Part shown: positions 46,464-49,510 of the stretch, one piece after another
Layout: every line of letters begins with the position of its first letter
Position numbering within the stretch: position 1 is the stretch's first letter
Assembly: GCA_937138675.1 (NCBI GenBank)
Contig: CAKZPG010000044.1
Span: forward strand, 1-53,661
Source: an uncultured archaeon
Lineage (GTDB): Archaea; Halobacteriota; Halobacteria; Halobacteriales; Haloferacaceae
Length of the DNA stretch: 53,661 nt
Reading direction: 5' to 3'
Notes under the pieces: model-generated
The model's database searches: none
The model's input: only the letters and a program-made list of their open reading frames with translations
Told to the model about the DNA's origin: nothing
Position numbers and translations under genes: made by a program

Positions 46464-47432
46464 GTGATCGGAACCCGGGCACGCGCGCTGGTACGTGACG
46501 CCCTCGAAGGGGTTCACGAGCAGTTCCTGTGGAACGAGATAGATCTGGGAGACGTGCCCGCCCATGTTGCTATCATTCAGGACGGCAACCGCCGTTACGC
46601 ACAGTGCCGGGGCGAGGCCGCGCCGGAGGGCTATCACGCCGGCGCGGACACCACGGAGCAGGTGCTATCGTGGTGTGCAGACCTCGGTGTCGAGGAACTC
46701 ACGCTCTACGCGTTCTCGACCGAGAACTTCGACCGCCCCGAAAACCAGTTGAACACGCTCTTCGACCTCATCGAGTCGAAGCTCCGCGAGTTCGCCGACG
46801 CCGAGAAGATTCACGAGCGCCACGTCCGCGTCCGGGCCATCGGCGACGTCGACCGCCTCCCTGCCCGGGTGCGTGACGCTGTTGCCTACGCCGAGGACCG
46901 GACCCGGGACCACGACCAATTCACGCTCAATGTGGCGCTCGCGTATGGCGGCCGCGCCGAACTGCTTGAGGCCGCCCGCACCGTCGCTCGCGACGTGGCC
47001 GCCGGCGAACTCGACCCGATGGACGTCGATGCTGACGAGGTGGAACGGCGACTCGCCGGCCCGACCGTCCGCGACGTGGACCTCATCGTTCGCACCGGTG
47101 GCGACGAACGCACCTCGAACTTCCTTCCGTGGCATGCGGCCGGCAACGAGGCTGCAGTCTATTTTTGTGCGCCGTACTGGCCCGCGTTCTCGAAGGTCGA
47201 CCTCCTCCGGGGCGTCCGCACCTATCAGGCCCGCGAGGAGTCGTGGCGCGCCAGCCGTGCTGACCGGGCGGCCGCCCTCGTCGGCGCCGTCGGTGAGACG
47301 AGCGCTGTGGAGGCCGGCGCCGTCGTGAGCCGTCTGCGAGAGCGCCTTTCCGGGCGCGCGGCGCGGGCCGCGGAGGATGCACTCCCGGAGGGTGGAGGGG
47401 GAGCAGATCCGGTGGGCGACGGGACTGGATGA
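46464..47432 (+). CDS. uppS: Polyprenyl diphosphate synthase (cis-prenyltransferase), DGNRR-containing
   Basis: VPAHVAIIQDGNRRYAQ, LYAFSTENFDRP, VDLIVRTGGDERTSNFLPW. Confidence 0.92.
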   Translation: MIGTRARALVRDALEGVHEQFLWNEIDLGDVPAHVAIIQDGNRRYAQCRGEAAPEGYHAGADTTEQVLSWCADLGVEELTLYAFSTENFDRPENQLNTLFDLIESKLREFADAEKIHERHVRVRAIGDVDRLPARVRDAVAYAEDRTRDHDQFTLNVALAYGGRAELLEAARTVARDVAAGELDPMDVDADEVERRLAGPTVRDVDLIVRTGGDERTSNFLPWHAAGNEAAVYFCAPYWPAFSKVDLLRGVRTYQAREESWRASRADRAAALVGAVGETSAVEAGAVVSRLRERLSGRAARAAEDALPEGGGGADPVGDGTG

Positions 47433-47463
47433 GGGTGCGACGGTTCGACTGCGAAGAGTTGTT

Positions 47464-48081
47464 CTACCGGCCAAACCGTCGCTGCCGACTTTGGTAGTCA
47501 AGCAGCGCCCGCAGGTAGTCTCGCCTTCGGAAGTCCCGCCAGTTCACGTCGGTGAAGTAGAGTTCCGAGTAGACCGACTGCCAGATCATGAAATCGGAGA
47601 GACGCTCGGCACCGGTCTTGATCAGGAGATCCGGTTCTTCCGGAAAGACCAGCCGTAGCTCAATGGCGTCGGCGTCGACGTCCGCCGGGTCGAGGTCGCC
47701 GGTCGCGACCTCCTGTGCGAGCGCCCGGGTCGCGGCCGCGAACTCCCGCTTGCCGCCGAGGCCGACGTTGACGTGGATCGGCGCCTCCACGGGGTCGGTG
47801 TCGCCGGGGCCGCGCACCGCGAGCGGTCGTGGAGAGTCGACGTCCCGGAGCGCACGCTCGATCGTCGGGACGACCGCCTCGTCGAGGACCGAGACACTCA
47901 CAGAGACCCGCTCTGTGCCGTAGTCGAACGCCCACCGGAGGAAGCGCTCGAGCGTGTCGTACGCCCCCTGTTCTAAGAGGTCGCGTTCGGTGATGACGAC
48001 CGCGACGCTCTCGGGGAGCCATCCGCCCCGACGACGGCGCGCGCGGACCCGGAGGGCGAGCCACCGGTCGTACGGATTCAC
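47464..48081 (-). CDS. Cis-prenyltransferase paralog lacking the N-terminal DGNxR motif
   Basis: PDLLIKTGAERLSDFMIWQSVYSELYFTDVNWRDFRRRDYLRALLDYQSRQRRFGR matches the cis-PT C-terminus; N-terminus VAVVITERDLLEQ lacks DGN. Confidence 0.85.
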   Translation of the reverse strand: MNPYDRWLALRVRARRRRGGWLPESVAVVITERDLLEQGAYDTLERFLRWAFDYGTERVSVSVSVLDEAVVPTIERALRDVDSPRPLAVRGPGDTDPVEAPIHVNVGLGGKREFAAATRALAQEVATGDLDPADVDADAIELRLVFPEEPDLLIKTGAERLSDFMIWQSVYSELYFTDVNWRDFRRRDYLRALLDYQSRQRRFGR

Positions 48082-48172: not shown

Positions 48173-49510
48173 GTGACAGACCCCCTGTGGCGGGCCGGCG
48201 GGTTCGCCGCCGTTGCGACGCTGGCGCTCGCCGCGCCGGCACTGGGTCGAGCCGTAGCGCTCCCGTTCGCCCTCGTCGCCGCCGCAGCCGCGTTCGTCGT
48301 CGATGACGGTCCTCTGTTCGACCTGTTTGCCCGCCCGGGCGACCAGCAAGAGGGCCGACTCTCGGGGCTGGCCGGGTTCGCCCTCGCCGCTACTGGCCTC
48401 GGGGTCCTAACAGCGTTTCCCGGCGCGACGGCGACGATGCCCGTCGCCGTCTTCGTTGTGAGCGTTCTCGTTCTCGCGTACGGCAACCTCGGCGAGCGAC
48501 TCGTCGAGCGCGGGTCGTCGGACCCGTTCCTCGCGACAGCCGGGTTCGTCGCCGCCGGCTTCGCCGCCGGTGTCGCCGGCCAGGCCGCCGTTGCTACTGT
48601 GGCCAACCTCCCACTTTCGTACCCGCGCTTTGCCTTTCTCGCCGCCGCCGCGGCACTCGCGGCCGCGCTCTTTCGGACGATGCTCTACGTCCGCGACGAC
48701 CCGCTGGTGATGGTGAGTGTCGGTGTACTCTGCTGGCTCTTCGACGCCGTCGCGGCCGACGTCGCACCTGTGGAGGTTGGGGTCGCCCTCGCGCTTACTG
48801 CCGTCCTCGGTGTCCTCGCGTACGTCCTTGGCACCGCAAGTGCCACCGGGATGCTGACCGGCGTCCTTCTGGGACTGCTCGCTGTCGTCCTCGGCGGCCT
48901 CGGCTGGCTCGTCGTGCTCCTCACCTTTTTTGCCGTCGGCGGACTCTCCACTAAATTCCGGTACGACCGCAAACTCCAACGTGGTGTCGCCGAGGACGAC
49001 GGTGGCGCGCGCGGAACGGAGAACGTCCTTGGAAACGCCGCCGTTGCCCTCGTCGCCGTCGTCGCCTTCGCCGCTGCCGACCTCGTGCCTGGACGACCGG
49101 TCGACCCGGCAATGTTTCGTTACCTGTTCGCTGGGTCGCTCGCGGCCGCGATGGCCGACACCCTCTCCTCGGAGGTGGGCGGCCTGTTCGACGGGCCGCG
49201 CCTCGTCACGACGTTTGAAGCCGTCCCGCCCGGCACCGACGGTGGTGTGACGTGGCAGGGGACGATCGCCGGTCTGGTCGGCGCCGCTGCAGTGGGCAGC
49301 GTCTCCCTGCTCCTCCTCGGAACGCGCCTCCCCGGCGACGCAGCGGCCGTCGTTGTCGTTGGCGGCGTAGTTGGGATGTTCACTGACAGTCTCCTCGGCG
49401 CAACCATCGAGGGCGACCGGGTCGGCAACGAGGCGGTGAACCTGGCCGCTACTGCCGCCGGCGGTGCCGCAACGGCGGCGCTGGCCGTTGGCCTCGGCCT
49501 CGTCGCCTGA
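48173..49510 (+). CDS. DUF92 family multi-TM membrane protein
   Basis: GGLSTKFRYDRKLQRGVAEDDGGARGTENVLGN.. LAAAMADTLSSEVGGLF.. GTIAGLVGAAAV.. GATIEGD; GTG start 48173 (ATG 48131 possible). Confidence 0.85.
   Translation: MTDPLWRAGGFAAVATLALAAPALGRAVALPFALVAAAAAFVVDDGPLFDLFARPGDQQEGRLSGLAGFALAATGLGVLTAFPGATATMPVAVFVVSVLVLAYGNLGERLVERGSSDPFLATAGFVAAGFAAGVAGQAAVATVANLPLSYPRFAFLAAAAALAAALFRTMLYVRDDPLVMVSVGVLCWLFDAVAADVAPVEVGVALALTAVLGVLAYVLGTASATGMLTGVLLGLLAVVLGGLGWLVVLLTFFAVGGLSTKFRYDRKLQRGVAEDDGGARGTENVLGNAAVALVAVVAFAAADLVPGRPVDPAMFRYLFAGSLAAAMADTLSSEVGGLFDGPRLVTTFEAVPPGTDGGVTWQGTIAGLVGAAAVGSVSLLLLGTRLPGDAAAVVVVGGVVGMFTDSLLGATIEGDRVGNEAVNLAATAAGGAATAALAVGLGLVA

Follow-up and report, generated by a model that had tools for sequence, protein, structure and literature searches.

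Two genes of the cis-prenyltransferase family (PF01255) lie tail to tail in a 53,661-nucleotide contig of an uncultured archaeon of the Haloferacaceae (CAKZPG010000044.1, assembly GCA_937138675.1; this whole stretch is called the window below), and the question they raise is whether they encode two separate enzymes or two halves of one. An earlier note on this DNA had placed two convergent cis-prenyltransferase homologues at 46464-48081, and open reading frame positions together with PF01255 matches bear this out. Subunit A, the putative catalytic homologue, occupies 46464..47432 on the + strand (322 aa, GTG start), and subunit B, a putative non-catalytic homologue resembling NgBR, the partner of human DHDDS, occupies 47464..48081 on the − strand (205 aa, GTG start). 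The sequence evidence described below indicates that A and B very probably constitute a heteromeric cis-prenyltransferase, in which A would catalyse the reaction and B would donate a C-terminal RxG motif.

Active-site motifs of the two proteins

A fills positions 1-216 of the 219-position PF01255 profile (E=3e-67). It carries HVAIIQDGNRRYA, FSTENFDRP and RTGGDERTSNFLPW, followed by a helical tail instead of RxG. Residue conservation was assessed in 160 non-redundant A-B pairs (95% filter). The DGNRR catalytic motif (residues 40-44; 46581..46595, + strand) is invariant, with D40, G41, N42, R43 and R44 kept in all 153 sequences readable at this site. S85, N88 and R91 of FSTENFDRP (residues 84-92; 46713..46739, + strand) were found in 157/157 readable sequences, and R210, R216, S218 and W223 of the substrate-binding motif RTGGDERTSNFLPW (residues 210-223; 47091..47132, + strand) in 160/160 pairs. 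An RxG is absent from the domain end of A, where it is replaced by a C-terminal extension that is predicted to be helical (residues 259-322; 47238..47429, + strand). With every active-site motif present and RxG missing, A has the composition of a catalytic subunit.

B matches PF01255 over profile positions 117-219 only (E=9.6e-25). At the position of the DGN motif it reads VAVVITERD, the degenerate site itself (T31-E32-R33) lying at 47983..47991 on the − strand; none of the surveyed B proteins keeps DGN, and the FSxEN/RP region has been lost as well. The C-terminus is RRFGR, with RxG (R202-F203-G204) and the terminal R205 read from the sequence at 47467..47478 (− strand). E173, R199, R201 and G204 are present in 160/160 pairs and R202 in 158/160, and the chain ends exactly one residue past RxG in 153 of 164 B proteins. 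B therefore has the features of a non-catalytic subunit, without the catalytic Asp and tunnel motifs and ending in RxG. Neither protein combines DGNxR with RxG in one chain, as a homodimeric undecaprenyl diphosphate synthase (UppS) does: A lacks the latter and B the former.

The two halves of B have been conserved to different degrees. Column entropy in the 160 pairs was 2.32 bits for the N-half of B vs. 1.38 bits for its C-half, and 1.52 vs. 1.33 bits for the corresponding halves of A, which is no marked contrast. The variable N-half and well-kept C-half of B suggest that the part serving its own active site was let go, while the part serving a partner was kept. The shortest copies of B, in G302 (L116) and G311 (L118), are very short and diverged (164-168 aa); in the family to which these two genomes belong, A is likewise altered near its C-terminus.

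All of the motifs that the earlier note had quoted are present, including the RFGR with which B ends, and the complementary loss that it described recurs in the 160 non-redundant pairs and across the phylum. As judged from these sequences, an identical pattern in so many pairs and throughout the phylum is neither chance nor local decay.

Distribution and ancestry of the pair

Co-occurrence of the two forms in haloarchaeal genomes, a survey that the earlier note had suggested, was found to be nearly universal. PF01255 genes were detected in 294/294 genomes of the class, with exactly two copies in 283 (counted from the table); one genome (G072) gives a B match only, and ten have three or four matches. 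When B was used as the query, all 294 genomes gave a match, but this query can also detect A. In the phylum survey, 194 of 197 genomes had PF01255 matches, mostly two each, and the three in which no match was found (G300, G309 and G318) belong to one family and are 86-91% complete. In a selection of 55 genomes, most of them belonging to other families within the phylum, at least one full-domain gene ending at about profile position 216 was accompanied by one C-half gene reaching position 219, except in G072 (B only) and G395 (A split into two stretches). A and B thus occur together, the single-gene exceptions being G072 and a few assemblies of lower completeness.

The genome to which the window belongs (80.6% complete) has just two PF01255 genes, one of A type and one of B type. 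The earlier note had named a separate complete UppS as a finding that would count against a heteromer. This incomplete genome yielded no complete single-chain UppS in addition to the pair, and none was found among the extra copies read elsewhere. In genomes with at least three matches, the extra copies are mostly of A type (profile positions 1-216) or resemble MM_0014 of Methanosarcina mazei, one odd weak match in G002 being left unread in this tally. A second or third A-type gene, mostly without a second B, was seen in G061, G068, G099, G149, G150, G196, G228 and G262; such genes may perhaps encode alternative catalytic subunits that share one B.

A quick tree of 90 sequences resolved A and B as one group each (support 88 and 100), with all sampled families represented in both. 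Since each clade spans all of these families, the duplication that gave rise to A and B would predate diversification of the phylum, and the two-subunit split appears, on this phylogenetic evidence, to be ancestral to Halobacteriota. In a more careful tree, which included three bacterial sequences and neither Asgard nor further archaeal ones, DHDDS joined A with 98/85 support, although its placement with the bacterial enzymes was not rejected (p 0.15). It is conceivable, if on present evidence rather doubtful, that the split enzyme of Halobacteriota and eukaryotic DHDDS/NgBR descend from one archaeal duplication, in which case the two-subunit dolichol synthase of eukaryotes would have been inherited and not invented. 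The grouping is a lead, and where the eukaryotic enzyme came from becomes a question that can be tested.

The heteromeric kind of enzyme is already known from M. mazei; what is new is its apparent generality across the phylum, as read from sequence comparisons, and its apparently ancestral character. A literature search that largely excluded subscription papers found none that describes the split as a general feature of Halobacteriota. The heteromeric cis-prenyltransferase, usually called eukaryotic with one archaeal example, would apparently be the rule throughout one phylum of archaea, and a function is proposed for a gene family otherwise labelled just as a second undecaprenyl diphosphate synthase. 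Genetically tractable haloarchaea could also serve as models for DHDDS/NgBR assembly.

Predicted structures and alternative readings

AlphaFold2 models of A and B had predicted local distance difference test (pLDDT) scores of 90.5 and 91.5, respectively, and Foldseek searches of the PDB matched them to solved cis-prenyltransferases with E=9.6e-22 (A) and 1.1e-11 (B), such that both are predicted to adopt the cis-prenyltransferase fold. The C-terminal part of the A model contains helices at residues 244-277, 281-292 and 297-305. Of the 50 top-scoring PDB structures in the fold search with A, human DHDDS chains are the only ones that align through these C-terminal helices (∼305 vs. ∼230 columns). 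The root-mean-square deviation of about 10 Å between A and DHDDS shows that the helices of DHDDS are placed differently from those of A. DHDDS is also the best PDB profile match of A (8e-74), and chains of NUS1 (NgBR) match the B profile right up to the last residue of the chain.

The human complex is a tetramer built by the C-terminal helix-turn-helix of DHDDS. The RxG-bearing C-terminus of NgBR extends across the interface and enters the active site of DHDDS, and the carboxylate that follows RxG at the chain end is in contact with DHDDS residues R37 and R85 (PMC7573591). The matching residues of A are R43 and R91, which are invariant where readable.

A mechanism for the haloarchaeal pair can be proposed along these lines. 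Both substrates, allylic primer and isopentenyl diphosphate, would be bound by A, in which the Asp/Mg2+ site for catalysis and the tunnel for the product would also lie. B, whose own active site has been lost, would pair with A by way of the conserved dimer surface, and its last residues (R-F-G-R) would reach over into the active site of A and complete it. The complex would then make a C55/C60 polyprenyl diphosphate that gives rise to dolichyl phosphate, the N-glycan carrier. We infer the interaction, catalysis, product and carrier role in haloarchaea from motifs, complementary loss, co-occurrence, co-inheritance, predicted folds and gene order. The heteromer proposed in the earlier note is supported by the complementary loss, universal in the genomes read, by the finding of no complete single-chain enzyme in this genome or in those checked for extra copies, and by a precedent that it had named and that is real: MM_0618 and MM_1083 of M. 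mazei form a heteromeric cis-prenyltransferase (PMC8131916).

Several observations weigh against a heteromer. The A and B genes converge instead of sharing an operon, and a minority of genomes have them far apart. Mean-field co-evolution analysis of the 160 A-B pairs, a test of low power at an effective depth of only 98, detected no excess couplings at the expected interface; the top couplings overall reached 1.33 vs. 1.07 (standard deviation 0.04) in within-clade shuffles, an excess for which finer phylogeny could account. A few A proteins have an R-x-G near the domain end, which is shifted by one residue from the expected register in those that were aligned by eye. The window's own genome is incomplete, as noted above. 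Finally, MM_0014 is an active homodimer despite having no RxG (PMC8131916), and loss of RxG from A therefore does not by itself exclude activity of A alone.

This last point leads to the strongest alternative, that A is an active homodimer of the MM_0014 kind and B a dispensable or regulatory paralogue. All catalytic residues are kept in A, and human DHDDS alone is weakly active (PMC7573591). Nevertheless, B persists phylum-wide, its RxG end invariant and its own active site gone; A lies outside the MM_0014 clade, and the pair of A/B type in M. mazei forms a heteromeric enzyme (PMC8131916). We consider an A homodimer improbable.

It is less probable still, and by a clear step, that B is a homodimer with some other function, such as isoprenoid binding, and resembles cis-prenyltransferases merely by ancestry. 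The residues conserved in B are those that build the partner's active site in homodimeric enzymes and in NgBR, and it is hard to see what a B acting by itself would gain from keeping RxG and the residue after it; these points count for more than the divergence of its N-half or the ability of yeast Nus1 alone to homodimerise (PMC7573591). That B is a decaying duplicate heading for loss, as its faster evolution relative to A and the 164-168 aa copies in G302 and G311 might suggest, is strongly contradicted by a frame that is intact throughout the phylum and retains invariant residues, and can be given almost no credence.

Gene neighbourhood and comparison with known systems

The stop codons of A and B are separated by 31 bp in the window (47433..47463, read from sequence), and no terminator-like signal was found in this gap. 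Convergent orientation was observed in 139 of 140 A-B pairs with both members on one fetched locus, and in all 51 pairs no more than 6 kb apart in a coordinate-only listing that overlaps with the locus set. In 61 named haloarchaeal loci, stop-to-stop gaps range from 1 bp to 3.4 kb and the genes never overlap. The haloarchaeal loci were fetched partly for closeness of the genes, and the share of adjacent pairs is accordingly no estimate for all genomes. Convergence is partly explained by shared ancestry, and adjacency is not required, since far-apart pairs exist. A presumed obligate complex is here encoded tail to tail, frequently with fewer than 50 bp between stops, and not as one operon.

A gene for a membrane protein of the DUF92 family (PF01940, E=1.2e-52) lies divergently from B at 48173..49510 on the + strand; its likely start is the GTG at 48173, the mechanical open reading frame beginning at 47954. 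The same arrangement, divergent and upstream of B, was found in 104 of 116 haloarchaeal pairs. uppS is the single conserved gene context of the DUF92 family, for which a role in isoprenoid metabolism and a kinase step have been proposed (PMC5898192). The DUF92 protein, a neighbour that probably belongs to the same pathway and is not part of the cis-prenyltransferase, is a candidate for a kinase-like enzyme of isoprenoid or dolichol metabolism. Haloarchaeal N-glycans are assembled on C55/C60 dolichyl phosphate (PMC8674786). A search for AglB/STT3 (PF02516) gave no match in the window's genome (80.6% complete); AglB is present in all 14 relatives that are at least 90% complete, and it therefore probably lies in sequence that the assembly lacks. 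The links of the pair to a polyprenol carrier and to DUF92 are circumstantial.

Of the known systems, MM_0618/MM_1083 belongs to the same phylum. In G415, a Methanosarcina-like genome, the third PF01255 gene is of MM_0014 type (E=6.5e-132 to 7CAQ) and the other two fall in clades A and B, which makes the latter the presumed orthologues of MM_0618/MM_1083, by elimination and not by direct comparison. The M. mazei enzyme probably synthesises the glycosyl carrier lipid, and its products are C45-50 (PMC8131916), as opposed to the C55/C60 of haloarchaeal carriers; A and B are distant in the surveyed Methanosarcinales-like genomes, whereas here they are adjacent and convergent. The MM_0014 type, which some Methanosarcina-like genomes and others in the phylum carry, resembles A in having no RxG, but it is an active homodimer, forms a separate clade, and is absent from the window's 80.6% complete genome.

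Bacterial homodimeric UppS (Escherichia coli, Bacillus subtilis) has the same fold and the same motifs. In the bacterial enzymes both halves are on one chain, whereas A and B each lack one, and the residue following DGN is G in E. coli (DGNGR) and R in A. There is a parallel in organisation with DHDDS/NgBR and its yeast counterparts (Rer2 or Srt1 with Nus1), where the catalytic subunit, like A, lacks RxG and has a C-terminal helical extension, and the non-catalytic subunit, like B, terminates one residue past RxG. The eukaryotic system differs in the N-terminal transmembrane anchor of NgBR, which B does not have, and in its longer products, C85-100 in human (PMC7573591).
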